A DNA stretch of 64,000 bases from the NCBI GenBank assembly GCA_017640725.1, contig JAEPQB010000001.1:372001-436000 (forward strand). Reading direction: 5' to 3'. This stretch comes from Kordiimonadaceae bacterium. Its GTDB lineage: Bacteria > Pseudomonadota > Alphaproteobacteria > Sphingomonadales > Kordiimonadaceae. The translations under genes and the position numbers were made by a program. The notes under the pieces are model-generated. The model was not told the DNA's origin, did not search any database, and was given only the letters and a program-made list of their open reading frames with translations. This document shows, in pieces, positions 18,435 to 36,114 of the stretch (the stretch's first letter is position 1; each line of letters begins with the position of its first letter).

Positions 18435-18461
18435 GGTCTTTCTCTCAAATGGGCCGCGGGA

Positions 18462-19691: not shown

Positions 19692-20032
19692 GGTTGGACC
19701 CTGGTTGACACACCTACCGTCGATTCTTTCCAATTGACAGCGGTGTCTTTTCTCTCTCTGGCACAGTATGACCTGCTCGAAAAATGCTGCAAGTAAATTT
19801 GTGCAGATGAATCACTTCTTGCCCTAAAGCCCGACAATAAGTTGCTTTTTTTTTGCAAATGTTATCCAATGGCACTTGGGAAGATTAAGAAGTCGTAACT
19901 TTTATGTGCGTTTAGGCACCTTTAGTTATGTCTGGGGAGAAACCACCACCCTTGGCTTTGCGTCCACAAAGCCTGCAGCTCCCGTGCGTTTAGTTTTGAG
20001 TCTACAAAACATAATTTAAGCCGGAGGTTTAT
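19692..20032. promoter_or_regulatory. Divergent promoter region with a repeated TTTGnGTCnACAAA dyad
   Basis: This 341-bp gap separates the Gfo/Idh/MocA gene (minus) from the TonB receptor gene (plus). It contains two copies of the 14-bp pattern TTTG-n-GTC-n-ACAAA: TTTGCGTCCACAAA at 19957-19970 and TTTGAGTCTACAAA at 19995-20008. Each lies in a longer inverted repeat (GGCTTTG/CAAAGCC with a 6-nt loop at 19954-19973; GTTTTG/CAAAAC with a 6-nt loop at 19993-20010). The 10-mer GTGCGTTTAG is also present twice, at 19906-19915 and 19984-19993. The two dyads are 38 bp apart. I read them as tandem operators for the receptor/TRAP operon. No recognisable Fur box is present. Confidence 0.5.
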
Positions 20033-22408
20033 ATGTCCACTTCAGTTCGGATCAAAATGACAGCGTTGTCAAGTGTGGCAGCGTTGGCCATGACGATACC
20101 CACTGCGGCCCAAGATGCTTCAGTGGATGAAGTATTTGAAGAGATTGTCGTAACGTCGCAAAAGCGCGAACAGCGCCTGAGTGAAGTGCCAATCGCAGTA
20201 AGCGTGCTGGGTTCAGCTGCCATCGAACGCAGCCAGGCGCCCAATATCGAATCACTACAAACGCTTATTCCTGCCGTAAGCTTCAGGAAAGGCACGACAA
20301 ACGCCAACTCTGCAATCACAATTCGCGGTATCGGCACAATTTCATTCAGTGGCGCCGCCGAACCAAGCGTTTCCACCGTTGTTGACGGTGTTGTTCTGGC
20401 CCGTTCTGGCCAGGCATTCGCGGACCTGTATGACATTGACCGACTGGAAGTCCTGCGCGGACCGCAAGGCACCCTGTTTGGTAAAAACGCATCGGCTGGT
20501 GTGGTCAACATTGTGACCAAACGCCCCTCTTCTGAGTTTGAGGGTTATATTGATGCCATGTATGCCGAAGACAACGAGTGGCGGGTTCGCGGCCGCGTTG
20601 CAGGTCCGCTGACGGACACTGTCAACGCAAGCCTGACTGTCACCAAATCCGAATTTGGCGGCTATATCCGCAACGTGTTCAATAACCGAACTGTGAATGG
20701 CTATGACCGTTTTGGCGTGAGAGCGATGGTGGAATATCAGCCGTCCGACACGCTTTCGATCCTCGCAATTTATGAGCACTCGGAAACAGATGACGACTGC
20801 TGCGCCGACTTGGAAGTATTACCAAGCGGCCGAAATCCAGCATCCCCTGCTGCGCCCGACAGTAATGGCATTGTAAACGGCGTAGCCGACCTCGATCTGG
20901 GTCAGCGCCGGGTAGACCATGATTTCGAGACCACCACAATCGACAACACAGACGCCTGGTCGGTAGAGATTAACAAAGACTTCGAAAACATTACGCTCAC
21001 GTCGATCACAGCCTACCGAAACTGGGTCAATACGGAGTTCCGTGAAGGCGACTTCACATCGATCGGCGGCACGTCCGACCAGCCCGTGTTTGGTGTACCA
21101 TTCCAGCTTCATGATGATGGCACCCGGGAGTGGGATCAGTTCTCGCAAGAGATCCGGCTAGCAGGCCCCGAGGGCGAGCGCCTGTTCTACCAAGTGGGTC
21201 TCTATTACTTCAATCAGGACCAGGAAGCTGACTTTACGCGGAACGCCAGCTGTCAAAACAATGGCGGTCAAAACCAACCGATCCTGGATGCCAACCCTGG
21301 CCTGACCTGTAATGCCAATGACATTGTTGCAGCCACGGGCTTCTCAAGCGTTGATATCGAAAACTTCGCTCTCTTTGGGCAAGCCCACTATGAACTGATC
21401 GAAGACGAACTAACGCTGATAGTTGGTGCGCGCTATACCGATGACACCGTGTCCTTCAATCACCGCCGTGTGAGCCTGGACCCATTTGGGCGCCAAGGTG
21501 TTGGTGTTCGCCCTCAATTGCCAAACAGTCAATTCAGTGAGGCGTCTGGTGGTTTTGCCACTGACTTCAACAACGAGAGCTCAAACACAGACTTCTCCGT
21601 TCAAGCAGGCCTTCAGTATGACACGCAAGGCTCTGGCATCTTTTACGCAACCTATGCGCAAGGCTACAAAGGGCCAGCTTTCAACGTGTTCTACAACATG
21701 GGACGCAATGACGAATTGCCAATTGATGAAGAGTCTTCTGACAGCTTCGAAGTTGGCTACAAATACGCAGACTCAGACATCGTTGTAAACTTGGCTGCCT
21801 ACTACACGGAAATCAGCGGCTTCCAGGCCAACAACTTCGATAACTCCACGGGTGTTACCATCACGCGCCTGACAAACGCAGGTGACGTGTCCACCAAAGG
21901 TATTGAACTGGATGTTCTCTGGAACCCAACGGCAAACTTCACTCTAACCGCATCGGCTGCGTTGAATGATGCCCAGATCGAAGAGTTCAACTGCCCGGTT
22001 GACCCACTTTCTGGTCAACCACCAGCCAACTGCTCGGATCGTTCTGGATTGGATCTGCTGTTCTCGCCTGACTTCAACTTCAACATCGGCGGCGAGTATG
22101 TCATTCCGGTGAACGACGACACAGAAGTTGTGTTGAACGCCAACTGGGCTCGTGTGGATGACCAAAATTCTCTGCTGCCGCGCACAGATGGAACGTTTGC
22201 ACCAGTGAGCCTGCTGCCTGGTTACGACAAAGTGGATGCAAGCATCACCTTGTCAATGAATGACGGCCAGTATCTGATCACTGGCTTTGTGCGCAACCTG
22301 TTTGACGAAAGCTTTGTTACCACCTACAGCGGTGACAACTTCCGTTATCAGATTCCGCGCGATGCAGAGCGTTACTTTGGTGTGAACCTTCGGGCGAACT
22401 TCAACTAA
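20033..22408 (+). CDS. TonB-dependent outer-membrane receptor
   Basis: The 791-residue receptor has a signal peptide (about 1-26, ending PTAAQ), then a TonB-box-like EEIVVTSQKREQRLSEVP. The plug domain follows (about 45-160, RLEVLRGPQGTLFGKNASAGVVNIVTKRP), and then a 22-strand beta-barrel to the C-terminal YFGVNLRANFN. The plug motifs are those of the large iron-complex/nutrient receptor group common in sphingomonads and marine alphaproteobacteria. There is no Fur-like site upstream, and a TRAP transporter operon follows on the same strand. An organic nutrient such as an acid or sugar acid is therefore more likely than a siderophore. RBS CCGGAGG precedes the ATG. Confidence 0.9.
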   Translation: MSTSVRIKMTALSSVAALAMTIPTAAQDASVDEVFEEIVVTSQKREQRLSEVPIAVSVLGSAAIERSQAPNIESLQTLIPAVSFRKGTTNANSAITIRGIGTISFSGAAEPSVSTVVDGVVLARSGQAFADLYDIDRLEVLRGPQGTLFGKNASAGVVNIVTKRPSSEFEGYIDAMYAEDNEWRVRGRVAGPLTDTVNASLTVTKSEFGGYIRNVFNNRTVNGYDRFGVRAMVEYQPSDTLSILAIYEHSETDDDCCADLEVLPSGRNPASPAAPDSNGIVNGVADLDLGQRRVDHDFETTTIDNTDAWSVEINKDFENITLTSITAYRNWVNTEFREGDFTSIGGTSDQPVFGVPFQLHDDGTREWDQFSQEIRLAGPEGERLFYQVGLYYFNQDQEADFTRNASCQNNGGQNQPILDANPGLTCNANDIVAATGFSSVDIENFALFGQAHYELIEDELTLIVGARYTDDTVSFNHRRVSLDPFGRQGVGVRPQLPNSQFSEASGGFATDFNNESSNTDFSVQAGLQYDTQGSGIFYATYAQGYKGPAFNVFYNMGRNDELPIDEESSDSFEVGYKYADSDIVVNLAAYYTEISGFQANNFDNSTGVTITRLTNAGDVSTKGIELDVLWNPTANFTLTASAALNDAQIEEFNCPVDPLSGQPPANCSDRSGLDLLFSPDFNFNIGGEYVIPVNDDTEVVLNANWARVDDQNSLLPRTDGTFAPVSLLPGYDKVDASITLSMNDGQYLITGFVRNLFDESFVTTYSGDNFRYQIPRDAERYFGVNLRANFN

Positions 22409-22444
22409 GCAATTGCATGCACAATTGGATTTGAGCAACATTCA

Positions 22445-22468
22445 GGCGCATCACCAAGGTGGTGCGCC
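22445..22468 (+). terminator. Intercistronic hairpin between TonB receptor and TRAP genes
   Basis: GGCGCATCACC and GGTGGTGCGCC can pair over 9-11 bp with one G-U pair. No T-run follows, so it is better seen as an attenuator or 3'-end stabiliser than as a full intrinsic terminator. It could set different expression of receptor and transporter. Confidence 0.45.
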
Positions 22469-22509
22469 AATTCTGCTTAAGTAGATAAGCACAAATCTGG
22501 AGAGAGAAT

Positions 22510-23049
22510 GTGCTGGGTTTTCTTGAGAAAATTGTCCATTGGCTCGGCAAGGTAAACGCCGCGGTCGCACGCGTCGGCTGCAATTTGGCAGCAGTTTTGT
22601 TAGCCGTCATGGTCACTATCGTACTGGCTCAGGTTTTCTACAGATACATCCTGAACGATGCTTTTGGCTGGAGTGAAGAAATCGCAAAAGTCATGATGGT
22701 CTGGGTGACTTTCCTGGTTAGCCCTTGGGCTTATCGATACGGCGCATTTGTCTCAGTAGACATGTTTATAGAACCGTTTGGTGAACGGTTTCGCCTTTGG
22801 CTCGGGTTGGCCATTAACCTGCTGGTCTTGTGGGCCCTTTATGTCTTTTTCATTGAGAGCCTCGACTTCTGGAACCGTGGCAGAGCAACCCTGGCCGCCA
22901 CATTGCCGATAGAACTCGCGTGGTTTTATAGCATTGTGCCAATAGCATTTACTGGCCTTATGCTTGTCGGCATAGAGACCAACCTGCGTCACATATTGAC
23001 CCTCATGGACAGAGGAAAATCTCATCTGATCCCTGAAGGGGGAGGCTGA
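22510..23049 (+). CDS. TRAP transporter small permease (DctQ-like)
   Basis: 179 residues with four predicted membrane segments (about 20-42 VGCNLAAVLLAVMVTIVLAQ, 55-75, 92-114, 135-157). The family element FGWSEEIAKVMMVWVTF is present between the first two. It forms the small membrane subunit of a tripartite ATP-independent periplasmic transporter driven by the sodium or proton gradient. The frame starts at a GTG (22510) behind GGAGAGA; an overlapping ATG is in a different frame. The large permease gene follows 1 nt after its stop. Confidence 0.85.
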   Translation: MLGFLEKIVHWLGKVNAAVARVGCNLAAVLLAVMVTIVLAQVFYRYILNDAFGWSEEIAKVMMVWVTFLVSPWAYRYGAFVSVDMFIEPFGERFRLWLGLAINLLVLWALYVFFIESLDFWNRGRATLAATLPIELAWFYSIVPIAFTGLMLVGIETNLRHILTLMDRGKSHLIPEGGG

Positions 23050-23050
23050 T

Positions 23051-24337
23051 ATGTCGTTGGGTTACTTCTGGATTTTTGTTCTTTTGATGGTGATCGGCGC
23101 ACCGGTCGTGTTTGCGCTGCTTATCGGCCCTGCCCTCAGCCTAACTCTTGATGGTCAACCGATGTATGTAAGGGCTCTCCTCAGCCGACTTTACAACGGC
23201 ATGGATAGTTTTCCGCTTATGGCGGTTCCGTTTTTCATTTTGGCCGGCGAATTGATGAACTCCGGCGGCATTACACGCGCCATCGTGCGCTTCAGTGAAA
23301 CGCTGATTGGCCATGTGCGCGGCGGTCTGGCACAGATCAATATATTGTCTTCCATCCTGTTTGCTGGCCTCTCTGGTTCTGCGGTCGCCGACACTTCGGC
23401 GCTAGGCAAAATGCTGGTGCCTGCGATGGAAGAAGCCGGATATTCGAAGCGGTTTTCCGCGGCGGTCACTGCCGCATCCTCCGTCATCGGGCCAATCATT
23501 CCCCCGTCCGGGATCATGATTATTTACGCCTTCATCATGAACGTATCCGTAGGTGGATTGTTCGCTGCGGGCATTGTGCCAGGCTTTCTAGTTGCCGTGG
23601 GGTTGATGTTGATGACAAGCCGGATCGCAAAAGCCCGTGACTATCCGGTTGCCAGCAGAAAAGCCACCTGGGGCGAGAGAGCTGACGCGTTCAAAAGCAC
23701 CATTTTGGCGCTATTGACGCCGGTTATTCTACTTGGCGGTATTATTCTCGGCATATTTACCCCAACGGAAGCCGCCGCGGTTGCCGCCTTTTATGCGCTT
23801 GTTGTTGGTCTGTTTTTCATGCGGTCGCTGAACACACGGGACTTGCCACATATCTTCCGGTCCGTGGCGCAACAATCCGGCGTTATCCTTTTGCTGGTCG
23901 GCTCTGCGGTTACCTTCGCATGGATCATTACAGTTTCCGGCATGGCAGAGCAGTTGGCGACAGCACTGACCGGCATTACCGATAACATTCTCCTGCTTCT
24001 GTTTTTGGTGAATATCTTTTTGTTGATCGTCGGCATGTTCCTGGACGCGGGACCTGCGATCCTGATTTTGGGTCCAGTTCTGGGGCCGATATTCATTGGA
24101 CTTGGTATTGAACCGCTCCATTTTGCGATCGTCATGTGCGTTAATGTAACGGTTGGTTTGGCGACACCGCCCATGGGTCTGGTACTATTTGTTGCCTCGT
24201 CAATTTCGGGGGAGAAAGTCGACCGTATTGCACAGGAAATGTTGCCGTTTCTGGCGGTTGAAATCGGGGTGATATTCCTGATCACCTATTTCCCGGCGAT
24301 ATCGCTGACAATCCCTCGATTGCTTGGCTTTTTGTGA
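23051..24337 (+). CDS. TRAP transporter large permease (DctM-like)
   Basis: 428 residues, almost entirely hydrophobic, with about twelve membrane helices. Family motifs include PFFILAGELMNSGGI, SSILFAGLSGSAVADTSALGKMLVPAMEEAGY, IGPIIPPSGIMIIYAF, GIFTPTEAAAVAAFYAL and LGPVLGPIFIGLGIEPLHFAIVMCVNVTVGLATPP (partly quoted). It is the translocating subunit. RBS GGGGGAGG precedes the ATG. The binding-protein gene starts 7 nt downstream of its stop. The transported compound is unknown. Confidence 0.9.
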   Translation: MSLGYFWIFVLLMVIGAPVVFALLIGPALSLTLDGQPMYVRALLSRLYNGMDSFPLMAVPFFILAGELMNSGGITRAIVRFSETLIGHVRGGLAQINILSSILFAGLSGSAVADTSALGKMLVPAMEEAGYSKRFSAAVTAASSVIGPIIPPSGIMIIYAFIMNVSVGGLFAAGIVPGFLVAVGLMLMTSRIAKARDYPVASRKATWGERADAFKSTILALLTPVILLGGIILGIFTPTEAAAVAAFYALVVGLFFMRSLNTRDLPHIFRSVAQQSGVILLLVGSAVTFAWIITVSGMAEQLATALTGITDNILLLLFLVNIFLLIVGMFLDAGPAILILGPVLGPIFIGLGIEPLHFAIVMCVNVTVGLATPPMGLVLFVASSISGEKVDRIAQEMLPFLAVEIGVIFLITYFPAISLTIPRLLGFL

Positions 24338-24344
24338 GGACAAA

Positions 24345-25400
24345 ATGAGCGAGACCGAACCACAAGCCGACGATTTTAGAACCAAAGTTATCCGGGTGTT
24401 TTTCTTTGCGCTGGTAACTATGTGTTTTGTTGGTCTTGCATCCAGCTTCGAGGGTCAGCGCGGCGAGGTAATCAAAGTCGCATTCTTGGGTTCTAAAGAT
24501 GACGAAGACTATGCTGGCGCTTTGGCATTCAAAGAAACAGTTGAACGGGAAACCAGCGGCAAATTATCCGTCCAGATATTTCCTGCAGGCCAATTTTGCG
24601 GCAATGCCCGTGAATGCCTCGAAGCCCTGCAGTCAGGCACACTCGAAGTTTCCATGACAACTGCCGGCGGTGCTGGCAGTTTGTTTGGCGCAATCCAGGT
24701 ACTTGACCTGCCCTACGCATTTAATGGTGACACCGTTGCTGAGTGTGTGATGGACGGATCTTTTTCTGGGCAGCTCCGCACAGCCATGCTTGAGGCTGGA
24801 ACTGGCATACGCCTGGGAGTCATTTCCAACACCGGTGGTTGGCGAAATTTTGCAACAGTTGATACGCCAGTCAGGTCAGCTGAAGACCTTGCAGGATTAA
24901 AACTGAGAACCGTAACTGCCCCCATCCAGCAAGAAATGATGCGCCAACTCAACGCCAGTGCAACACCAATCGCTTGGTCAGAACTCTATTCAGCCCTGGC
25001 AACCAAGGTCGTGGAAGGCACCAAAAACAGCGTTCAAGATATTGTCGGCATGAAATTTCATGAACACATAAAACACCTGTCGTTGGATGGTCATGCATAT
25101 ATGGCGGCTATGTGGTGGCTCTCCGATAGCCGCTGGCAGCGTTTCTCCGCAGAGGAAAAGCAAGCGGTGATGAACGGTTTACGGGCGTTGCAGGCGGAAA
25201 CACGCACCATAGTTAAAGCTGGGGAACAGGCCGCGCTCAAAGAATTTACAGATGCAGGCGGCACGGTTTATCAACTGACCGATGAGCAGCGACAGTCCTT
25301 CATCAATGCCACTGCTGGCATGCGGACTTGGTTTAGCAATCAGTACGGACCAGAATGGTTGCAATCTCTGGATCAGGCCGTGCAGGTTTGTTCTTCCTGA
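24345..25400 (+). CDS. TRAP transporter solute-binding protein (DctP-like)
   Basis: 351 residues from the ATG at 24345, chosen for the GAGGAC Shine-Dalgarno; a longer frame would begin inside dctM. A single N-terminal hydrophobic segment (about 15-33, VFFFALVTMCFVGLASS) acts as signal or membrane anchor. DctP features follow: LSVQIFPAGQFCGNARECLEALQSGTLEVSMT, the conserved arginine region LAGLKLRTVTAPIQQEM, and SAGE-like ALATKVVEGTKNSVQDI. The Arg in LKLRT is the usual carboxylate-binding residue, so the ligand is probably an organic acid. A two-cysteine motif (FCGNAREC) is less usual in the family. Confidence 0.85.
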   Translation: MSETEPQADDFRTKVIRVFFFALVTMCFVGLASSFEGQRGEVIKVAFLGSKDDEDYAGALAFKETVERETSGKLSVQIFPAGQFCGNARECLEALQSGTLEVSMTTAGGAGSLFGAIQVLDLPYAFNGDTVAECVMDGSFSGQLRTAMLEAGTGIRLGVISNTGGWRNFATVDTPVRSAEDLAGLKLRTVTAPIQQEMMRQLNASATPIAWSELYSALATKVVEGTKNSVQDIVGMKFHEHIKHLSLDGHAYMAAMWWLSDSRWQRFSAEEKQAVMNGLRALQAETRTIVKAGEQAALKEFTDAGGTVYQLTDEQRQSFINATAGMRTWFSNQYGPEWLQSLDQAVQVCSS

Positions 25401-25485: not shown

Positions 25486-26997
25486 ATGCCTTTTTTTAAT
25501 AAGTCTTCTAAAGCTGACAGCGAACCCTCTGACCTGGACCGGGAAGTTGCGGAAGCATTTGTCGCTCTTGGACGCCGTGACAAAGATGCGCCAATTCCTG
25601 CCGGTCTTGCTAAAGAAACGCTGATATCGATGATGTTCCGCCATGCAGACATGCTGTCCGGAACCATGCAGTCGGCAGAATCAGCTATTTTGTATGAAAT
25701 TGCCTCACATTTGGCTGGAGTGGGCAACGACTCGCTCACAAAAGGCAAGGATGCGGAAGACCTTCGCCAAACCGGGGCCGTTTTGCTTGCCGCTGGACGC
25801 CTGCAGTTGGCCCTTAAAGTCTATGAGCAATTGGTCCAGCAAGACCCCACGAGCCACGATGACCATACACGATTGGCGGCTCTGTACCGAAACGCCAATG
25901 GCGAGGACATGGCTCGAGACTTTCTCCAATCCTATTTTGCTAAAAATCCGGTCGAGCGAGAGTTTGCAGGTGACAGCCAACCTTCCAAGGGCGCAATACT
26001 TAGCGTTACTGGCTATGACAAAAGCATTTACAAAGTCGGCAAGCGAGGCGACGGCAGCTATAAGTGTTACCGCAGTGGCGGACATTTTATGCTTCGGTAT
26101 CTGGTCGACATGCACGATTATGATGTCACCAGTTATGTTGTCGCGCGCGATAACCTCTCCAGAATTCAGCCAACAGGCAAACAAGACTTACTGCTGAACA
26201 CCATCGCTGACCCGGACACTGAGCACGCCTCGCTCATCTCTCTCGAAAAGTATGTTGTTGGTCATCCGCCGGCCAGTCTGATCAATCATCCCACGGAGGT
26301 TCTCAAAACCACACGTGACGGGAATTATGACCGGCTTCATTCAATCGACGGCATCAGGTTCCCCAAAACCATGAGGTTTGCTTCCGCTAATGTTTCGTCG
26401 GATGAACTGGCCACCGCCATCGAAACAGAGGGCTTTGAATACCCCTTCATTGTGCGCCGCACGGGAACTCACACGGCTGTATCAACCAAGTTGATTGAAC
26501 ATAGGAGCGCGCTTGAGGCTTACATCACAGATGCCGACGGCGAAGAGCTTTATGTCATCGAATTCGTAGAAAACCGTTCGCCCGAAGGCCACTTCACCAA
26601 GATGCGGTTTTTCGCAATTGATGGCGCCCTTTACCCGGTGGTGCATCATATCGACGAAGTCTGGAATGTGCATGGCGGCAACCGCAAAACATTCATGGCC
26701 AATAACGAGTGGATGCTCGAAAAAGAACAGCAATTTATGAACGACCCGGCAAGCATACTTGGTGACCAAGTTTACGGCTTGCTGCAATCACTTCCCGCTA
26801 TGATTGGACTGGACTTTTTCGGATTTGATTTCACCATTCTGCCAGATGACAACGTGCTGATTTTTGAACTGAACCCGGCAATGCGCCATAGCTTTGACCA
26901 TGCTGACAATTTTTCTTACCTGGAGCCACACATGCAGGCGGTTAGTGACGCCTTCGCCAACATGGTCGACAGAAAGATCGCTCAAGCAAGGGGCTAA
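25486..26997 (+). CDS. TPR and ATP-grasp-like protein of unknown function
   Basis: 503 residues in two parts. Residues about 85-165 form TPR-like helices (RLQLALKVYEQLVQQDPTS, HDDHTRLAALYRNAN). The C-terminal half (about 280-495) resembles an ATP-grasp domain: a strand-loop YPFIVRRTGTHTAVST where the nucleotide-binding lysine/arginine region would be, then LYVIEFVEN, and GLDFFGFDFTILPDDNVLIFELNPAMRHSF. In that last segment the acidic residue and Asn (E461, N463) match the Mg-binding E-x-N of ATP-grasp enzymes. There is no signal peptide. The family typically joins a carboxylate to an amine or thiol. It faces the aminotransferase gene tail to tail (4-bp stop overlap) and is 1.3 kb from PEP mutase, so a role in amidating or peptidyl-coupling a phosphonate is possible. 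That is inference. Confidence 0.6.
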   Translation: MPFFNKSSKADSEPSDLDREVAEAFVALGRRDKDAPIPAGLAKETLISMMFRHADMLSGTMQSAESAILYEIASHLAGVGNDSLTKGKDAEDLRQTGAVLLAAGRLQLALKVYEQLVQQDPTSHDDHTRLAALYRNANGEDMARDFLQSYFAKNPVEREFAGDSQPSKGAILSVTGYDKSIYKVGKRGDGSYKCYRSGGHFMLRYLVDMHDYDVTSYVVARDNLSRIQPTGKQDLLLNTIADPDTEHASLISLEKYVVGHPPASLINHPTEVLKTTRDGNYDRLHSIDGIRFPKTMRFASANVSSDELATAIETEGFEYPFIVRRTGTHTAVSTKLIEHRSALEAYITDADGEELYVIEFVENRSPEGHFTKMRFFAIDGALYPVVHHIDEVWNVHGGNRKTFMANNEWMLEKEQQFMNDPASILGDQVYGLLQSLPAMIGLDFFGFDFTILPDDNVLIFELNPAMRHSFDHADNFSYLEPHMQAVSDAFANMVDRKIAQARG

Positions 26998-28193
26998 AGG
27001 GACGCAAGTGCTGCGAGCCCTCGCTCGAAAGTTTCATCGTCCGAGCATAAAATCATGCGCAGGCTCGAGGCACTTGTTGGCCCATACACAAAACCCGGAA
27101 TAGCTGCCACCTTGTGGGTTTCCAGTAGCCAGTCTGCAACGGCTCTACCGGCACCCTCTGCGTTTTCTTGCCCTAACCTGGCAGCCAAATCGCTCACATC
27201 CGGGAAGGCAAACATGCTGCCCAGCGGCTTTCGCCTCCAAACAAAACCCTTTTCAGGTATCAGTGTTTCGATCAACTGGTTCGCCCTGCGACCAAGAAGG
27301 TCCGAAGTCTCATCCATCCACTTGTCGGCGCTTTCATCAGAGATGAGACGCAGGGCGATCCGTTCCGAAAGAATATTGACACCCAGATACATATAATCAT
27401 GCAGTTTAGCGGCCAAATCGATAACTGGTGCTGGCGCGCACATCCAACCGATGCGCAGCCCGGGCACACCATATTTTTTTGAAAAACTGTTGATTAGTAT
27501 CGAGCGATCATTGAGAGCAGACACAGCCCGCGCCGGCTTGTGAGGCCGCGCAAATGCCATACTGTCATAGACTTCATCATGAATGAGCCACAGGCCTTGT
27601 TTTTCAACAAAATCGCTCAGCCCAGCAAAATCCTTATCACTCAACACATAACCACTTGGGTTTTCCGGTGAGTTCACAATAAGCGCTTTGGCTTTGCCGT
27701 TTACTCCCCAGTCCGGTGCATTTTCATACTCATGCTCAGTGATTTGCCGCGAAACGCACTCAGGTTGACGCCCCAAGGTTTGTAAGGCCCTTGAATAGAG
27801 CATGTAGCTGGGGTCGGTGATCAACACGCGCTCACCAGGATCAGTGGTCACCAATGCCGCCAAACTGATGGCTTCAACACCACCGTGAGTGATCAAAATT
27901 TCACTGTCGGGGTCAACCTGTAGGCCATAGCGCCGGTCATAATAATGCGCGATCGCCGCACGCAATTCAGGCATACCCCGATTACTCTCGTAGCGCTTGC
28001 TGGCGTCCAAAAACGCGCCCCAGTTCAGGTCCATTTCCTCAATAGCCTGCTTGCTTGAACACGGCGGGCCAAATGCAGGTTCGCCGAAAGCCATGTTGAT
28101 GACACCTGGAACACTTTTCGCTTTTTCCGCCATTGCTTTTGTGGCGTACCCGTCAAGGCTCAGCAGCTGCGGACTTAGTTCTGGCAGATTCAC
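26994..28193 (-). CDS. PLP-dependent class I/II aminotransferase
   Basis: 399 residues with the fold-type I signature. The PLP lysine is K239 in NSFSKKYGVPGLRIGW, with NSPENPSGYVL (the Asn contacting PLP), HDEVYDSMAF (the Asp pairing with the ring nitrogen) and a C-terminal arginine region SSLRMILCSDDETF. The start is a GTG at 28193 behind GGAG. It is divergent from the PEP mutase gene across 145 bp. Known 2-aminoethylphosphonate transaminases are usually class V enzymes, so if it acts on phosphonoacetaldehyde or phosphonopyruvate it is a non-standard choice. Ordinary aspartate/alanine-type transamination is the alternative. Confidence 0.85.
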   Translation of the reverse strand: MNLPELSPQLLSLDGYATKAMAEKAKSVPGVINMAFGEPAFGPPCSSKQAIEEMDLNWGAFLDASKRYESNRGMPELRAAIAHYYDRRYGLQVDPDSEILITHGGVEAISLAALVTTDPGERVLITDPSYMLYSRALQTLGRQPECVSRQITEHEYENAPDWGVNGKAKALIVNSPENPSGYVLSDKDFAGLSDFVEKQGLWLIHDEVYDSMAFARPHKPARAVSALNDRSILINSFSKKYGVPGLRIGWMCAPAPVIDLAAKLHDYMYLGVNILSERIALRLISDESADKWMDETSDLLGRRANQLIETLIPEKGFVWRRKPLGSMFAFPDVSDLAARLGQENAEGAGRAVADWLLETHKVAAIPGFVYGPTSASSLRMILCSDDETFERGLAALASL

Positions 28194-28248
28194 GCTCTTT
28201 CACTCCAAAGTGATGCAAATGCTTGCGACAAAACAACATTTGCGATGA

Positions 28249-28265
28249 CAGACCGCGTGGGTCTG
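28249..28265. promoter_or_regulatory. Inverted repeat in the aminotransferase/pepM divergent region
   Basis: CAGACC and GGTCTG surround a 5-nt spacer, between the divergent aminotransferase (start 28193) and PEP mutase (start 28339) genes. It could be a shared operator; a weaker pair CAAATG/CATTTG lies just beside it (28216-28242). Confidence 0.35.
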
Positions 28266-28338
28266 GGCTAAAAAGGGTTGTTGTCCCCAGTGGCAGTATG
28301 CTGATGAAAACTTCAAGTGCAACAGGTCGGTACCCGCA

Positions 28339-29253
28339 TTGAGCCATAACCCAACACAACAAAATCTGAGCCCCGCCACAAAGCTGAGAGCCTTGCTTGA
28401 AAACAACGCGCTTGGCTTCATTATGGAAGCCCATAATGCCCTGTCGGCCAAGCTGGCCACAGACGCAGGCTTTGAAGCTTTGTGGGCGTCAAGCCTGACC
28501 CTTTCCGCGTCAATGGGACTTCGGGACGCCAATGAGCTCAGCTGGTCACAGGTTTTGGACCTTGTGGACCCCATGCTTGAATTCGTTGAAACACCCGTCC
28601 TTGTGGACGCTGACAGCGGTTACGGCGACTTTAATATCTTTGGCCGGTTTGTGCGGAAAGCTTCAGAACGCGGAGTCGCAGGCGTTTGCATTGAAGATAA
28701 AGCTTTTCCCAAAAGGAATTCCTTCGCAAACACCAGCCACGAACTCGCTGACATTGATGACTTTTGCGGCATGATACGGGCCGCGAAAGACCAACAGAAT
28801 TCTGATGAGTTTTGCGTTGTTGCACGCACCGAAGCTTTTGTTGCGGGTGCGGGCCTCTCAGAGGCTCTCGAAAGAGCCAGCAACTATGAAGTGGCTGGGG
28901 CTGACGCGCTTTTTGTGCACTCCAAACAAAAAACCGCATTCGAAATTGAGTCATTCTGCCGAAGCTGGAACGGCAATATCCCGCTTGTGATAGCACCAAC
29001 AACCTATGCTTCAACACCCACGGCCGATTTTGTGCGATTGGGTATTGCCGCAGTCATCTGGGCGAATCACGGGCTACGCGCCGCAATAAAAGCGATGCAG
29101 GACAGTTATCAACAGATTGCTGCCGAACGGTCAGTGGCTGGCTTGGAGGGCAACATTACATCAGTCAGCGAATTACTGGACATCACCGGTACGGAAGACC
29201 TCATTAAGAAGCAAGACGCATATCGTCCACCGATTAAGAAATCGGGGTCGTAA
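28339..29253 (+). CDS. pepM: Phosphoenolpyruvate mutase
   Basis: The 304-residue isocitrate lyase-superfamily enzyme rearranges PEP to phosphonopyruvate, forming the C-P bond. The diagnostic PEP mutase motif EDK-x5-NS is intact (E119, D120, K121, N127, S128: EDKAFPKRNSF), as is the metal-binding VDADSGYGD at about 89-97. This separates it from oxaloacetate hydrolases and methylisocitrate lyases. No ATG precedes the conserved core; a TTG at 28339 is the best start, with only a weak AGG upstream, so the N-terminus is uncertain by a few residues. Phosphonopyruvate decarboxylase follows 3 nt after the stop, which pulls the unfavourable mutase equilibrium forward. Confidence 0.92.
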   Translation: MSHNPTQQNLSPATKLRALLENNALGFIMEAHNALSAKLATDAGFEALWASSLTLSASMGLRDANELSWSQVLDLVDPMLEFVETPVLVDADSGYGDFNIFGRFVRKASERGVAGVCIEDKAFPKRNSFANTSHELADIDDFCGMIRAAKDQQNSDEFCVVARTEAFVAGAGLSEALERASNYEVAGADALFVHSKQKTAFEIESFCRSWNGNIPLVIAPTTYASTPTADFVRLGIAAVIWANHGLRAAIKAMQDSYQQIAAERSVAGLEGNITSVSELLDITGTEDLIKKQDAYRPPIKKSGS

Positions 29254-29256
29254 GCA

Positions 29257-30399
29257 GTGCTAAACGCTTCTGATTTTCTAGATGCGCTCGTAACAAATGA
29301 TTTTTCTTTTTCTTCTGGTGTGCCCTGTTCATTCCTGAAAGGCCCCATGCAGCTCCTGGCCAACAATGGCAGCTATGTGGCGGCCAGCATAGAAGGCGAA
29401 GCAGCGGCAATTGCCGCCGGTGCTTGGCTGGCTGGAAAACATTCGGCCGTGTTCAGCCAAAACTCAGGACTCGGGAATTTGGTGAATCCGCTGACGTCGC
29501 TCAATCAGCCGTTTAAAATTCCGACACTTTTGGTGGTTGGTTGGCGCGCTGCACCCGGTGTCGAAGACGAACCCCAGCACAGACTGATGGGTAGCATAAC
29601 CAAGGAAATGCTAGAGTTGATGGAAGTGGAAGTCGTCGAATTGTCCGCTAGTGAACCGGTGATGCGACAGCAGGTGAAAGAAGCCGCGACCGAGGTGAAA
29701 ACACATCGTAAATCCGTTGCGCTTCTCGTCCGTCCAGACTGTTTTAGAGACGATCCTGAACAGCTTACTCGGCCATTACTGCCTCCGCGGCCACGCGGCA
29801 TATTGCATTCTTTGATGGGGAACGAGGAGAAGCCGAGCCGCCACCAAGCCTTGGAGGCTTTTCAAGACATAGTCTCATCCGATGCCGCTGTGATTGCCAC
29901 CACGGGTAAGTGTGGCAGAGAACTTTTCACGCTGAATGACCGCGACCAAAATTTCTACATGGTGGGCTCGATGGGCTCAGCAAGCGCCATAGGACTTGGA
30001 ATTGCTTGTGCGCAACCATCAAGGCCTGTTTTTGTCCTAGACGGTGACGGGGCGGCACTGATGCGGCTCGGCACAATGTCGACGATCGGCCAACAAAGTC
30101 CAAAAAACCTGGTCCACATCATTTTGGACAATGGAGCACACGACTCGACAGGCGGCCAATCGACAGGTTCAGAATCAATAGACTTTCCGAATGTTGCGCT
30201 GGCCTGTGGTTACGCTGCGGCATGGCAATGCGGTGCAATTTCCTGTTTTGATAAAGCGCTCAAACAAGCCAGCAGCACAGAAGGACCAACTCTGGTTCAC
30301 CTCACCATAAGACCAGGCTCAATTAAGAACCTCGGACGACCAACTGTGCTGCCCCATGAGGTTGCAGACAGGTTCCGGCAGTTTTTACTGAAAGCCTAA
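29257..30399 (+). CDS. ppd: Phosphonopyruvate decarboxylase
   Basis: The 380-residue thiamine-diphosphate enzyme converts phosphonopyruvate to phosphonoacetaldehyde. The N-terminal pyrimidine-binding half has FSSGVPCSFLKG and the cofactor-activating glutamate in SIEGEAAAIAAGAWLAG. The C-terminal half holds the ThDP/Mg motif, starting VLDGDGAALMRLG and ending VHIILDNGAHDSTGGQ. Length and the GVPCSFLK segment are typical for Ppd rather than acetolactate synthase. The start is a GTG, coupled to pepM. Its stop overlaps by 4 bp the stop of the convergent permease gene. Confidence 0.92.
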   Translation: MLNASDFLDALVTNDFSFSSGVPCSFLKGPMQLLANNGSYVAASIEGEAAAIAAGAWLAGKHSAVFSQNSGLGNLVNPLTSLNQPFKIPTLLVVGWRAAPGVEDEPQHRLMGSITKEMLELMEVEVVELSASEPVMRQQVKEAATEVKTHRKSVALLVRPDCFRDDPEQLTRPLLPPRPRGILHSLMGNEEKPSRHQALEAFQDIVSSDAAVIATTGKCGRELFTLNDRDQNFYMVGSMGSASAIGLGIACAQPSRPVFVLDGDGAALMRLGTMSTIGQQSPKNLVHIILDNGAHDSTGGQSTGSESIDFPNVALACGYAAAWQCGAISCFDKALKQASSTEGPTLVHLTIRPGSIKNLGRPTVLPHEVADRFRQFLLKA

Positions 30400-32042
30400 A
30401 ACTTGTTCTTGCTCGATACTCTGTTGAGCAGCAAAACCGGCAATAGTCCAACAAGCACAATTGCAAGTGCCGCTGTTGAAGCCTCAGCAAGCCGCTCGTC
30501 GCTTGCCAAGCGATAGACACGTGTTGCCAGTGTTTCAAAATTAAATGGGCGCAATATTAGGGTTGCCGGCAACTCCCGCATCACATCAACAAATACGAGC
30601 AACATGGCGGCAGCCAAACTTGGACGCAAAAGCGGCATATGAATTTTGCGCACAACGCCGCTAGGTGATTCACCCAAACTCCGCGCTGCTGCGTCCATTG
30701 ACGGCGAAATAGTCGCGAGCCCACCACTCACAGAGTTGAAGGACACGGTCAGAAAGCGAACAACATAGGCATAGACCAGCAAAACCGTGGTGCCACTCAG
30801 CACCAAACCGCCAGTCCAGCCAAAATTGTCCGCCATAAAACCCGTAAGCGCACGATCATAGTTACCAATAGGGCCGAGCAAGGCAATCGCAAGCATCAAT
30901 CCTGGCAACGCATATCCAAGTGTTGATAGTCGAATGGCGACTTTTGTGGCTGGGCTTTCGCTCAGTCTTTGTGCATACGCAAGCAGTAGCGCTAAACCAG
31001 TTGCCACAATCGCTGCAACCACAGCAACGCTCACACTGTTAGTTAGAAAATCAATAAACCCTCGGCCTAGCAATTGGTCGCCACCTTCAAAAGTGTACGC
31101 CAGCAAACTAACCATCGGCACAATAAAGCCAATCGTTACGGGAGCAAAACAAAATGCCAAAGCACCCCACTTCGCCCAGCCCTGGAGCTGCATTGGTATG
31201 AATTTGCCGTGGGCAGTTCCACTATCGAACCGGCCACGCCGACCCAGGCTTTCAAACCCAATGAGTGCAATAACAAACACCAGCATGATCGCCGCCAGTT
31301 TCATGGCAGCCAGCTTCTCCCCCATGGCAATCCAGGTACGGAAAATGCCGGTACTGAATGTAGGGATTGCGAAATAATCGACGACGCCAAAATCAGCAAG
31401 TGTTTCCATCAAAACCAATGCCAAGCCGCCAGCAATCGCCGGCCGTGCGGCAGGAAGTGCTACTCGAACAAACGCAGAGAATGGCGAATGGCCCAATGTC
31501 CGCGCAGCCTCAAAATGCACACCAGCCCGCGTCGCAAATGCGTTGCGAGCCAGCAAGTAGATGTAGGGATACAGAACCAAACTTAGCAGAAGTGCTGCTC
31601 CCGGTAGACTTCGGATGGCTGGAAACCAGTACTGGCCAGCTTCCAGGCCAAAACTCGACCGGATCCAAGTTTGAACAGGTCCTGCGAAGTCCAAAAGGTC
31701 AGTGTATAAATAAGCCACCACATAAGCAGGGGCAGCGAGTGGCAAAACCAGGAGCCAACTCACTGTTTTTTTGCCCGGAAAATCGGTTGCCGCCACGAGC
31801 CACGCCGTTGGCACGCCCAGCAGGCAGGAAAACACGGCAACTAACGCCATCAAAGTAAGGGAGTTCCACACATATCCGCTTAACGTCGTTTCAAGCAAAT
31901 GGTCCCATGCAGCGCCGCCCGGCACAAATAGATGGAATAGCAACACCCCAATTGGCAACACCATACCTGCTGCGACAAGCAAAGACGCAAAGGTCCATCC
32001 AGACAGGTCAGCTTTGCGCATTATCGTGTCCATGCTCGTCAT
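30396..32042 (-). CDS. fbpB: Fe(III) ABC transporter fused permease (FbpB-like)
   Basis: A 548-residue inner-membrane permease with two homologous halves and about twelve helices. Both ATPase-contact (EAA) loops are visible: EAARTLGHSPFSAFVRVALPAARP at about 175-198 and DAAARSLGESPSGVVRKIHMPLLRP near 440-465 (partly quoted). This double-length arrangement is typical of Fbp/Sfu/Hit iron transporters and some thiamine or 2-aminoethylphosphonate systems. It is divergent from the ATPase gene across 121 bp. The binding protein encoded nearby carries iron-type tyrosines and a Fur-like box, so iron is favoured over phosphonate. Confidence 0.82.
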   Translation of the reverse strand: MTSMDTIMRKADLSGWTFASLLVAAGMVLPIGVLLFHLFVPGGAAWDHLLETTLSGYVWNSLTLMALVAVFSCLLGVPTAWLVAATDFPGKKTVSWLLVLPLAAPAYVVAYLYTDLLDFAGPVQTWIRSSFGLEAGQYWFPAIRSLPGAALLLSLVLYPYIYLLARNAFATRAGVHFEAARTLGHSPFSAFVRVALPAARPAIAGGLALVLMETLADFGVVDYFAIPTFSTGIFRTWIAMGEKLAAMKLAAIMLVFVIALIGFESLGRRGRFDSGTAHGKFIPMQLQGWAKWGALAFCFAPVTIGFIVPMVSLLAYTFEGGDQLLGRGFIDFLTNSVSVAVVAAIVATGLALLLAYAQRLSESPATKVAIRLSTLGYALPGLMLAIALLGPIGNYDRALTGFMADNFGWTGGLVLSGTTVLLVYAYVVRFLTVSFNSVSGGLATISPSMDAAARSLGESPSGVVRKIHMPLLRPSLAAAMLLVFVDVMRELPATLILRPFNFETLATRVYRLASDERLAEASTAALAIVLVGLLPVLLLNRVSSKNKF

Positions 32043-32163
32043 AAAGGGTGCCTTGAGGACAGTTTAGTCCGCTATTGTTTGAACTCTGATTTCTGTTTAT
32101 CAGATAACTCTGGCTTCGCAATCCATAGAAACCAGAGCCGCAATGTGATGAAAGGACCCTTGC

Positions 32164-33201
32164 ATGGGTTTGGTGTTCCAAAATATATCGCACTCATATG
32201 GAGAGGGCCGCGTACTTGACGACGTTAGCCTAGAAGCGAATTCGGGCGAAATAACCTGTCTGCTGGGCCCTTCTGGTTGCGGAAAAACGACACTTTTGCG
32301 CCTTGCAGCCGGTCTCATGCCTCTTCAATCTGGGCAGATCAGCTTGGATGACTTGACCCTGGCAACTCAGCATCGATCGACACCGCCTGAGGAAAGGCCC
32401 GTGGGTCTTGTTTTTCAGGAAGGGGCCCTATTTCCTCACATGACGGTCGAAGAGAATATCGCTTTTGGCATCGCCGCGACCCCTGACAGCCAAGAGCGTG
32501 TTCAAAGCCTTTTGAAAACTATCGACCTCGTGGGGTATGAAAACCGCCACCCGCACTCTTTGTCAGGTGGTCAGCAGCAAAGGGTCGCTCTTGCCAGGGC
32601 GTTAGCACCTTCACCCAGCGTTCTTTTGCTCGATGAACCATTTGCCAATATTGACAGCCAATTACGCCAAGACCTGCGTGCCGAAACCCGTCAAACGCTG
32701 AAAGCAAGCGGCACAGCTGCAATACTGGTAACGCATGATCCCGATGAAGCGCTGGAAATGGCCGATCGCATTGCCATATTAGACAAAGGGAAAATTGTGC
32801 AGTTCGACACACCAAGAGAATTGCTCGACAATCCTATTACCATCGAAATCGCGACCCTTTTTACCCGAAGCAAAATTATGCTTGCCAAAGTAGACGGCAA
32901 CCGTATGGTCACGAGCTTCGGTGAGTGGCCCATCGAATGCTTAAAAAATGCAGACTCCTTGCCAAAATCACCGCGGTTAGTTGTGCGTCAGAATGTCTTG
33001 CAAGTTGAACAAATGGAGGGCGCCAGCAACACCATCAAACTTGTGCGCCCGTCGCCGCATGGCCACCTGATTACCGTACAAGGTAGCGACAATTTTGAAC
33101 TTGATGTTCAACTGGAAGACATATCTGGCCTTGCAGAAGGCATGCCCGTTGTCATTACGCCAAAAGAGGCATCAATTTTGGCTTTTTCCGCAACAGAATA
33201 A
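32164..33201 (+). CDS. fbpC: Fe(III) ABC transporter ATP-binding protein (FbpC-like)
   Basis: A 345-residue ABC ATPase: Walker A GPSGCGKTTLLRLAAG (residues about 37-52), Q-loop VFQEGALFPHMTV, signature LSGGQQQRVALARAL, Walker B VLLLDEPFANID, and H-loop VTHDPDEAL. A C-terminal TOBE-like regulatory region follows (about 240-345). The length and Q-loop are those of iron/spermidine-type importers. RBS AAAGGA precedes the ATG. The binding-protein gene lies 99 bp downstream with its own Fur-like site. Confidence 0.88.
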   Translation: MGLVFQNISHSYGEGRVLDDVSLEANSGEITCLLGPSGCGKTTLLRLAAGLMPLQSGQISLDDLTLATQHRSTPPEERPVGLVFQEGALFPHMTVEENIAFGIAATPDSQERVQSLLKTIDLVGYENRHPHSLSGGQQQRVALARALAPSPSVLLLDEPFANIDSQLRQDLRAETRQTLKASGTAAILVTHDPDEALEMADRIAILDKGKIVQFDTPRELLDNPITIEIATLFTRSKIMLAKVDGNRMVTSFGEWPIECLKNADSLPKSPRLVVRQNVLQVEQMEGASNTIKLVRPSPHGHLITVQGSDNFELDVQLEDISGLAEGMPVVITPKEASILAFSATE

Positions 33202-33223
33202 CAATTGCAATTCCGTTGGTTTC

Positions 33224-33238
33224 TGATAATCATTCTTA
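33224..33238. promoter_or_regulatory. Fur-box-like site upstream of fbpA
   Basis: TGATAATCATTCTTA matches the 7-1-7 Fur pattern (TGATAAT, 1 nt, imperfect inverse), 62 bp before the fbpA start. Iron-responsive regulators in some alphaproteobacteria are RirA or Irr instead, so the identity of the binder is inference. Confidence 0.5.
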
Positions 33239-33300
33239 ACAAGGGCCGTGAATTCACTTTCCGGCAACTAACTATTATCGATTAAGCGAGGAAATCCCTG

Positions 33301-34365
33301 ATGTTTCGAAACGCCCTTTTAGCCACCACCGGGGCTTTGGTACTGGCTGCGTGCAGCCAAAATGAGAACAATGCCGGCAACGAAAATGCCGAGTCAGCCA
33401 AAACGGAAATAGCTGGTGAAGTGAATGTTTATTCTTCCCGGCACTATGATACCGATTTGGCCCTGTATGATGAGTTCACTGCAGCAACGGGGATCAAGAT
33501 CAACTTGATTGAGGCCGGTGCTGATGCCCTGATTGAACGCATCAAAAGCGAAGGTGAGTATAGCCCGGCTGATGTTCTGATTACCGTAGATGCGGGCCGT
33601 CTGTGGCGAGCCGAAGAAGCTGATATTCTGGATACCGTTTCTTCGGAAACGTTAAGCAGTCGCGTGCCAGCATACCTGCGCCACCCCGAAGGCCTTTGGT
33701 ATGGCCTGTCTAAGCGAGCACGCGTCATTATTTATAACAAAGCGGCGGGCAAACCAGAGGTTTTGGATAATTACGCCGACCTTGCAGACCCCAGCAATTC
33801 TGGCAAAGTCTGCATTCGCTCCAGCTCAAATATCTACAACATTTCACTGATGGCGAGCATGGTCAGCCACTTGGGCGCCGAAGCCGCAGAAAACTGGGCC
33901 AAAGGCGTTGTTGCCAACTTTGCACGCGATCCGCAAAGCAATGACACGGGCCAAATCCAAGCTGTGGCAAGCGGCGAATGTGGAATAGCCGTCGTGAACA
34001 CCTACTACCTGGCCCGATATGTCGCCTCAAATGACCCCGAGCTCAACGCCATTGCAGATTCAGTCGGTGTTGTGTTTCCGGATCAAGACGGGCGCGGTAC
34101 GCACGTCAACATCAGCGGTGCAGGCGTTGTGAAAGGCGCGCCCAACCGGGAAAATGCCGTTAAATTCATCGAATATTTAACGGAAGACCAAGCGCAGAAT
34201 TATTTTGCCAACGGCAATAATGAATACCCTGCCGTTCCCGGCGTCGCCCCTGCAGCTGCAGTCGTGACGCTCGGCTCCTTCAAGGAAGATGAATTGAACG
34301 CTTCTTTGCTGGGTCAAAATCAGGCTGAAGCCGTGCGTGTTTTCGACCGGGCGGGATGGCAATAA
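33301..34365 (+). CDS. fbpA: Fe(III)-binding periplasmic lipoprotein (FbpA/FutA-like)
   Basis: A 354-residue extracytoplasmic binding protein with lipobox LVLAAC (Cys18) followed by an Asn/Glu-rich linker. The mature domain starts EVNVYSSRHYDTD, the ferric-binding start motif with its tyrosine and histidine. It also carries NTYYLARY, the paired tyrosines that coordinate iron in FbpA/FutA proteins. ADVLITVDAGRLWRA and HVNISGAGVV are further family segments. The lipid anchor is unusual for a Gram-negative FbpA but known. A Fur-like site lies upstream. Confidence 0.88.
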   Translation: MFRNALLATTGALVLAACSQNENNAGNENAESAKTEIAGEVNVYSSRHYDTDLALYDEFTAATGIKINLIEAGADALIERIKSEGEYSPADVLITVDAGRLWRAEEADILDTVSSETLSSRVPAYLRHPEGLWYGLSKRARVIIYNKAAGKPEVLDNYADLADPSNSGKVCIRSSSNIYNISLMASMVSHLGAEAAENWAKGVVANFARDPQSNDTGQIQAVASGECGIAVVNTYYLARYVASNDPELNAIADSVGVVFPDQDGRGTHVNISGAGVVKGAPNRENAVKFIEYLTEDQAQNYFANGNNEYPAVPGVAPAAAVVTLGSFKEDELNASLLGQNQAEAVRVFDRAGWQ

Positions 34366-35163: not shown

Positions 35164-36114
35164 ATGGAAACAAAATTTAAGCGCCTGAAGGGGCTGGGAC
35201 TAACGGCGGCATTGCTGAGCACAACAGCGCTCGCAGCTTGCTCTGGCGAAAGCGGAGAAGGCGAGCACGGCGAAGGTGAAGGCGGCGAAGCTGTCGTTGA
35301 GCAAACCGTCGGCGAACGCGGCGAGTCTGGCGAAGGTGAGCGCGGAGAAGGCGAATCCGGTGAAGGTGAGCGCGGAGAATCCGGCGAAGGTGAAGGCGGT
35401 GAAGGCGAGTCTGGCGAAGGTGAGTCTGGCGAGGGCGAGTCTGGTGAAGGCGAACGCGGCGAAGGTGAGTCTGGCGAAGGTGAAGGCGGCGAAGGCGAGT
35501 CTGGCGAAGGTGAAGGCGGCGAAGGCGGCCATTCCATGGACACCCTTCCTGTTGAAAACCGCTTGGCCTTCATGACTGGCCATGTGAAAGCTGGCATTAG
35601 TCTTTACAGAGCCGGAGAGGCGTCTATGGGCGCACCACACTTGCTGCACCCAGTTTCTGAAACGCACCAAGCCGAGCGTGCCGGCTTGGATGCTCTGGGT
35701 TTTGATGCATCGTTGTTCGAAACTGTTTCTGCCGCACTAGATGCTGGTAAGCCCGCCGCAGAAATTGAGCCTCAGTTGCGCGCCGCTGAAGAAAACCTAT
35801 CTATGGTCGCAGAGAAAGCAGGCGGCGATGCGGCAAGCGTCATCACTTACCTTATGGGTGTGATTGTTGAAGAATACACGATTGCCATTACTGATGGCGC
35901 TGTGACAGACCCTGGAGAGTATCAGGATGCATGGGGTTTCGCGCAAGTTGCCAAGGACCGTGCAGCCAGTTTGCCGGGCGATACGCGTGATGCAGTGATC
36001 GCAGAGATCGACGCACTGATTGCATTGTGGCCAGCGGCTCCAATCCCACCCGAAAGCCCTGCGCCTATTGCGCAAGTTGTTGCTCAAACCTCACGGGTTT
36101 TGCTGCGGCTTTAA
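35164..36114 (+). CDS. Acidic pentapeptide-repeat lipoprotein, probably iron-linked
   Basis: 316 residues. A lipoprotein signal ends in LAAC (Cys26). Residues about 27-122 are almost only Glu, Gly, Ser and Arg, organised as XGEGE pentapeptides with X = S, R or G (at least twelve copies in residues 52-122). The C-terminal 190 residues are a normal-composition helical domain with histidines ([28 protein letters not shown]) and acidic segments. I do not recognise the domain with certainty. The DNA repeat is a 15-bp unit, prone to length change. Location opposite piuC, beside fbpA and next to a Fur-like box suggests a surface or periplasmic metal-collecting role; the glutamates could bind cations. 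RBS AAGGGGATAAGC precedes the ATG. Confidence 0.75.
35317..35529 (+). repeat. 15-bp tandem repeat encoding (S/R/G)GEGE
   Basis: About 210 bp of imperfect 15-bp units (type GGCGAAGGTGAGTCT) within the lipoprotein gene. The reverse strand gives a long Pro/Ser open frame here that is a by-product of the repeat. Confidence 0.85.

Follow-up and report, generated by a model that had tools for sequence, protein, structure and literature searches.

A four-gene phosphonate cassette in Kordiimonas

The stretch of DNA analysed here (the window, 64 kb) is part of a 4.04-Mb genome assigned to Kordiimonas, a marine genus, and carries at positions 25486-30399 a cassette of four open reading frames (ORFs) that are inherited as a unit within one Kordiimonas clade; the cassette is real. 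With a probability of roughly 0.55, we read it as a phosphonate cassette in which a phosphoenolpyruvate (PEP) mutase (PepM), a phosphonopyruvate decarboxylase (Ppd) and an aminotransferase (AT) would lead to 2-aminoethylphosphonate (AEP), from which an ATP-grasp protein would form an AEP conjugate. The features are as follows, with lengths in amino acids (aa) and base pairs (bp):

25486..26997, plus strand: TPR and ATP-grasp protein, 503 aa; predicted RimK/ArgX/LysX-like fold, key residues identical in 32/32 sequences
26994..28193, minus strand: class I/II pyridoxal phosphate (PLP)-dependent AT, 399 aa, candidate non-PhnW AEP transaminase; PF00155
28194..28338, no strand: intergenic region of 145 bp between the divergent AT and pepM genes
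28339..29253, plus strand: pepM, stand-alone PEP mutase, 304 aa, TTG start; over the TIGR02320 cut-off, aligned with 1m1b
29257..30399, plus strand: ppd, phosphonopyruvate decarboxylase, 380 aa, GTG start; over the TIGR03297 cut-off, aligned with 9iz3

By their family assignment, PepM converts PEP to phosphonopyruvate, which Ppd decarboxylates irreversibly to phosphonoacetaldehyde. The class I/II AT, in place of the class V enzyme PhnW, would likely aminate this aldehyde to AEP, and the TPR/ATP-grasp protein could plausibly use ATP to activate a carboxylate and couple this to the amino group of AEP, so that an amide or peptide-like conjugate would result. The layout given in a preliminary description of this DNA is correct: the AT gene is divergent from pepM across the 145-bp gap, and the TPR/ATP-grasp gene meets it tail to tail, the two convergent genes overlapping by 4 bp. 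Promoter and terminator scans contributed nothing to the reading, and no promoter is proposed for the gap.

PepM and Ppd

PepM matches PF13714 at 211 bits and exceeds the equivalog cut-off of the PEP mutase model TIGR02320 (335.6 vs 319.55 bits). The solved PEP mutase 1m1b aligns with PepM residues 11-297, and EDKAFPKRNS of PepM stands opposite EDKLFPKTNS of 1m1b; EDK-x5-NS, which we take to be the PEP mutase active-site motif, is thus intact, as had been stated. Identification as a phosphonopyruvate hydrolase (206 bits vs a cut-off of 374) or as a methylisocitrate lyase (140 bits vs 354) was rejected. Ppd is over the equivalog cut-off of TIGR03297 (420.2 vs 312.5 bits) and could be aligned with structure 9iz3. 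With both enzymes over curated cut-offs and their genes 3 bp apart, the proposed coupling of pepM to ppd was borne out, and the assignment of the route from PEP through phosphonopyruvate to phosphonoacetaldehyde, as judged by curated family models, is solid.

Conservation of the cassette

When PepM was searched against 196 genomes of the order, 9 of the 19 Kordiimonas genomes proved to hold a strong match (E<1e-90). A comparison of neighbourhoods had been set beforehand as a test, and all four genes were found beside each other in 9/9 pepM-bearing genomes, with pepM, ppd, the divergent AT gene and the convergent ATP-grasp gene in the same order and orientation; this count includes one locus in which the contig ends within the ATP-grasp gene (L067) and one from a draft metagenome assembly in which the AT and ATP-grasp genes are split over several frames (L068). 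L068 and L101 are the same contig, and the split frames represent either sequencing error or decay. In 5/7 intact cassettes the end of the ATP-grasp gene overlaps the AT gene. Across the seven intact cassettes, the four proteins diverge in step with one another (correlation of pairwise divergence, r 0.73 to 0.90), as expected for coinheritance.

Beyond the four genes, no family was common to more than three of the eight cassette loci recovered by a scan of genome contigs (ORFs of at least 70 aa, within 9 kb). On one side, the flank holds a TRAP transporter, a chemotaxis receptor or proteins unmatched in Pfam; on the other, it holds an iron-type ABC permease, a FAD enzyme, a B12 radical SAM protein, a GtrA protein or an esterase. 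TRAP genes adjoin the ATP-grasp gene in the window and in three other loci, and the neighbours of ppd differ.

Usable rpoB was obtained from 14 of the 19 Kordiimonas genomes, and in the tree built from it the seven pepM-bearing genomes lie on one side of one branch (support 100/99); the pepM-bearing G450 and G459, which yielded no rpoB, are unplaced. The nine pepM-bearing genomes appear to be one clade and therefore stand for one origin, not for nine independent associations; as judged from these sequences, the cassette was probably gained once and then kept.

The aminotransferase and the canonical phosphonate genes

That a class I/II AT stands beside pepM instead of a class V AEP transaminase, as described before, agrees with its match to PF00155 (165.6 bits, gathering cut-off 19.7), and no AEP transaminase model, TIGR02326 included, is among the best 25 of its 73 NCBIfam matches. 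Residues K239, D206, Y209, N174, R247 and R379, which we take to include the Schiff-base lysine and PLP-site residues by role, are invariant in 8/8 aligned enzymes (the window and seven orthologues). The predicted structure is of moderate confidence (predicted local distance difference test, pLDDT, 75) and finds its nearest counterparts among class I aminotransferases of the usual kind (2o0r, Z 36.0, root mean square deviation (rmsd) 4.0, 370 residues aligned), with many top matches tied and C-S lyases slightly lower (Z ~33). AT orthologues at 61-69% identity occur in exactly the 9/19 Kordiimonas genomes that bear pepM, and the best other aminotransferase in the 19 genomes has 33% identity over a short stretch. 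In a phylum sample of 398 genomes, with at most four candidates scored per genome, one of the 397 genomes besides its own held a match that passed E 1e-45 (32% identity). Neither the AT nor the TPR/ATP-grasp protein was hit by a defence-system model.

A genome-wide search with a single PhnW model, TIGR02326, found no match over the cut-off in the 19 Kordiimonas genomes (best 163 vs 400.8 bits), and PhnX was likewise over the cut-off in 0/19; no control genome passed for either model, which means that sensitivity at the cut-off is not demonstrated by the controls. PhnJ had no match in the 19 genomes, with E. coli positive as control. The AT is inferred to be the aminating enzyme because it is the sole such enzyme common to the cassettes and no PhnW is over the cut-off.

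The preliminary description had also reported no class V AEP transaminase, cytidylyltransferase or phosphonate-lipid gene. This was confirmed by a tblastn search of the whole window with Roseomonas queries (E<=1e-5), in which cytidylyltransferase, PhnW-like and CDP-alcohol transferase sequences had no match; nucleotidyltransferase, PhnW-like and CDP-alcohol transferase genes were equally without a match in 8/8 further cassette loci, two of which (L132, L099) have short flanks. Other alphaproteobacterial pepM loci, sampled from 20 of 43 other genomes with PepM over the cut-off (one, L149, a short contig), gave a nucleotidyltransferase match in 16/20 and a PhnW-like gene in 7/20, and neither the AT nor the ATP-grasp protein of the window had a match (E<=1e-5) in these 20 loci and L071-L073. 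A plasmid of Roseomonas marmotae shows the canonical layout of a long PepM, Ppd, AEP transaminase, cytidylyltransferase and CDP-alcohol transferase. The genes common to the Kordiimonas cassettes include neither a nucleotidyltransferase nor a lipid headgroup gene nor an exporter, so that a surface decoration derived from CMP-AEP, such as the class usually makes, is unlikely to be the product.

The TPR/ATP-grasp protein

The term ATP-grasp-like was the weakest point of the preliminary description. Curated ATP-grasp sequence models (Pfam, NCBIfam, E<=0.001) have no match in the 503-aa protein, for which Pfam gives TPR alone, below the gathering score, and NCBIfam no model at all. The protein can still be placed in the ATP-grasp superfamily because the predicted fold and conserved residues support it. 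In the predicted model (pLDDT 88.9), a helical TPR-like N-terminal part (~1-155) is followed by an ATP-grasp domain (~169-503). Among the best 50 matches listed, this domain resembles RimK (Z 19.0, rmsd 4.0, 267 residues aligned), tied with ArgX (Z 18.8) and LysX/ArgX (Z 18.6); glutathione synthetase, D-Ala ligases and inositol phosphate kinases follow at Z 15 to 17, with a Foldseek E of 1e-9 for the D-Ala ligases. D448, E461, N463, K372 and R374 are identical in 32/32 aligned TPR/ATP-grasp sequences, the window included. D448 and E461-x-N463 presumably are the metal-binding Asp and Glu-x-Asn of ATP-grasp enzymes.

RimK, LysX and glutathione synthetase form amides. Amide formation by the Kordiimonas protein is proposed because these enzymes and the ATP-grasp enzymes of phosphonopeptide pathways catalyse it. 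While residues ~169-503 share the predicted fold of the RimK/ArgX/LysX ligases, the protein differs from them in its N-terminal TPR-like helical part, in an identity of 11-14% in the structural alignments and in its surroundings: among 635 small ORFs around nine cassettes, no gene for a LysW-like or other small carrier was common to the cassettes in the best 15 groups, in which the groups present in three or four loci are other frames of TRAP genes and the rest occur in two loci. From its fold similarity, the protein might be considered for a RimK-type activity, in which the C-terminus of a protein is extended by an amino acid.

The scan of genome contigs found 39 ATP-grasp loci, many of them cyanobacterial, of which eight are cassettes, all in Kordiimonas genomes already counted; one of these cassettes (L098) is that of Kordiimonas aquimaris JCM 16665. 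In the class sample, 24/385 genomes match the protein (its own included), 22 over the ATP-grasp part and 2 over the TPR part only. Outside the Kordiimonas clade no link to pepM was found: PepM, Ppd and AT had matches in 0/20 ATP-grasp regions, which hold 22 of the 31 class-sample matches other than that of the window. One locus, L129, has weak PEP-mutase-superfamily and aminotransferase matches and none to Ppd. Six genomes carry both the ATP-grasp family and PepM (G014, G056, G147, G182, G184, G334), and the ATP-grasp regions of G014, G056, G184 and G334 contain no PepM match.

A thiamine pyrophosphate (TPP) enzyme gene stands directly before the TPR/ATP-grasp gene in four alphaproteobacterial loci (L109, L114, L123, L129). 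The one tested is ilvB-like and matches all three TPP-enzyme domains; further on, an ilvN-like reading frame in L129 and an ilvC-like one in L109 were seen by eye. These neighbours suggest a link of the ligase to branched-chain amino acid synthesis. At L129:9866-12851 the TPR/ATP-grasp gene is, by eye, apparently split around an IS66-type transposase-like ORF.

Comparison with known phosphonate systems

We take PRK05764, under which AlpL of the argolaphos cluster is listed, to denote a class I type aminotransferase. According to the accessible part of PMC8976061, which gives this listing, the cluster of Streptomyces monomycini encodes a PepM (AlpH), a Ppd (AlpI), an aminotransferase (AlpL) and an ATP-grasp enzyme (AlpC), and in vitro, with a dehydrogenase coupled to the reaction, its aminotransferase converts a phosphono-aldehyde to an aminophosphonate. 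The Kordiimonas cassette shares with it PepM, Ppd, an ATP-grasp enzyme and, putatively, an aminotransferase for a phosphono-aldehyde. As far as that text goes, a reductase, an oxygenase and a dehydrogenase act in argolaphos synthesis before phosphonoformaldehyde is aminated, whereas the Kordiimonas cassette has none of these, and AlpC, with a putative role, belongs to PRK02186 and is not TPR-RimK-like. For the phosphonoalamide pathway pnaABCD, PMC11867202 describes four enzymes that suffice for a phosphonopeptide; this minimal set of four genes likewise combines PepM and an aminotransferase with ligation by ATP-grasp enzymes (putative in Kordiimonas), but it is described there without Ppd, with an aminotransferase acting on phosphonopyruvate and with two ATP-grasp ligases.

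Canonical AEP loci, with PepM, Ppd, AEPT/PhnW and the PntC nucleotidyltransferase (PMC6697681, in its available portion), have PepM, Ppd and a probable AEP intermediate in common with the cassette. In contrast to them, the cassette is without a PhnW-like transaminase, a fused or separate nucleotidyltransferase and a CDP-alcohol transferase, and has the class I/II AT and the TPR/ATP-grasp protein instead. The actinobacterial pathways follow a comparable logic, and the Kordiimonas set is a variant of known pathways.

Weighing of the alternatives

Several observations weigh against an AEP conjugate made by these four genes. Class V aminotransferases matching the PhnW model below its cut-off (up to 163 bits) are present in 19/19 Kordiimonas genomes, and one of them could aminate phosphonoacetaldehyde; unspecific host aminotransferases of Streptomyces are said to do so in the accessible text of PMC8976061. 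The cassette loci have no transporter, resistance or regulatory gene in common, and coinheritance within a single clade could reflect descent more than function. The best named NCBIfam model of the AT is that of GntC, a PLP cyclodehydratase, which leaves the AT, by its sequence, a candidate transaminase. The TPR/ATP-grasp family is not exclusive to pepM and occurs in other Kordiimonas, in Alphaproteobacteria and in Cyanobacteria. Five of the 19 Kordiimonas genomes carry an ATP-grasp relative at 30-43% identity and no pepM, the copy of K. laminariae falls inside a supported group with seven cassette copies (100/99), and the active-site residues checked are the same in cassette and non-phosphonate relatives. 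As the family also occurs without pepM, it need not be phosphonate-specific; the ligase probably is older than the pathway and was recruited, or has a more general substrate.

This distribution (5/19 Kordiimonas genomes, 22/385 genomes of the class with its own included, and Cyanobacteria), together with the shared active-site residues, favours a pathway whose end product is free AEP, formed by the class I/II AT, with the ATP-grasp protein as a neighbour of unrelated, older function such as amino acid or protein C-terminal ligation. We regard this as possible but doubtful, as the ATP-grasp gene is kept beside the AT gene and pepM in 9/9 genomes while other neighbours change, and overlaps the AT gene in most intact cassettes. 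The AT might instead act on phosphonopyruvate, with phosphonoalanine peptides formed by the ATP-grasp protein and Ppd serving a second branch; PnaA, of the aspartate aminotransferase superfamily, makes phosphonoalanine from phosphonopyruvate in phosphonoalamide biosynthesis and is coupled there to PepM, in a pathway with two ATP-grasp ligases (PMC11867202). Acting immediately behind PepM, a coupled and irreversible Ppd would, however, compete for phosphonopyruvate, and Ppd is kept in 9/9 cassettes while the minimal set pnaABCD is described in that text without a decarboxylase, which makes this route unlikely.

A decidedly improbable variant of conjugation is that the TPR-RimK-like ligase caps the carboxylate of a protein or carrier peptide with AEP, yielding phosphonoproteins or carrier-bound phosphonates without nucleotide activation; the TPR part would then recognise the acceptor, and an exporter would be needless. 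Least probable of all, and in our view very much so, is that the PLP enzyme is an elimination or cyclisation catalyst like GntC or VioD and the product is not AEP: the GntC model (NF041364) is matched by 8/8 aligned enzymes, but its score for the AT (215.6 bits) is about half of the equivalog cut-off (415), and the predicted fold is nearest to class I aminotransferases, though with the tied matches, the proximity of C-S lyases and the moderate pLDDT given above.

An AEP conjugate formed by PepM, Ppd, the AT and the ATP-grasp protein is the reading that we retain. The earlier proposal that AEP is made and then coupled to a carboxylate gains from the gene set kept in 9/9 genomes and from the lack of a PhnW over the cut-off in the 19 genomes, while its phosphonopeptide-like product stays conjectural. 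The proposal of a dedicated pathway was similarly upheld in part: the AT and ATP-grasp genes do accompany pepM in the relatives, but these are one clade, and the ATP-grasp family is wider than phosphonate metabolism.

Flanking genes

Two sets of neighbouring genes were considered as parts of the pathway and rejected. The block at 17454-25400, with TauD-family dioxygenase, Gfo/Idh/MocA oxidoreductase, TonB receptor and TRAP transporter genes, lies beside the cassette in the window and in L094, L095 and L097 only, where its order is kept; the TRAP large subunit is 93-95% identical across these loci, the adjoining ATP-grasp protein just 53-61%. The ABC transporter at 30396-34365, of the iron(III)/AEP-binding type, is convergent with ppd (4-bp overlap), and its permease and binding protein are unmatched in the eight other cassette regions. 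Both match NCBIfam AEP-transporter models far below the cut-off, the best match of the substrate-binding protein being an AEP-binding protein (84 of 310 bits). The substrate-binding protein of the window contains a Tyr-Tyr pair that resembles one in iron-binding FbpA proteins.

A B12-binding radical SAM protein is encoded 3' of ppd on the same strand at L066:11656-13557 (G432), and not beside other cassettes. At 35164-36114 of the window, an ORF for a predicted lipoprotein-like product was noted by eye, in which an N-terminal Cys is followed by a long Gly/Glu/Ser repeat.

Significance

Our literature search, which covered few subscription papers, found neither Kordiimonas as a phosphonate maker, the co-mention concerning in its available text the cultivation of sponge bacteria, nor a RimK/ATP-grasp ligase tied to phosphonates. 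The main text of a marine phosphonate gene survey (PMC9381506), in the portion available, contains no word beginning with 'Kordiimonad'. The cassette is a compact candidate for nucleotide-free conjugation of AEP, and its AT may represent a second kind of AEP transaminase, one that PhnW-based searches would miss. The analysis also points to Kordiimonas as a genus of candidate phosphonate producers.

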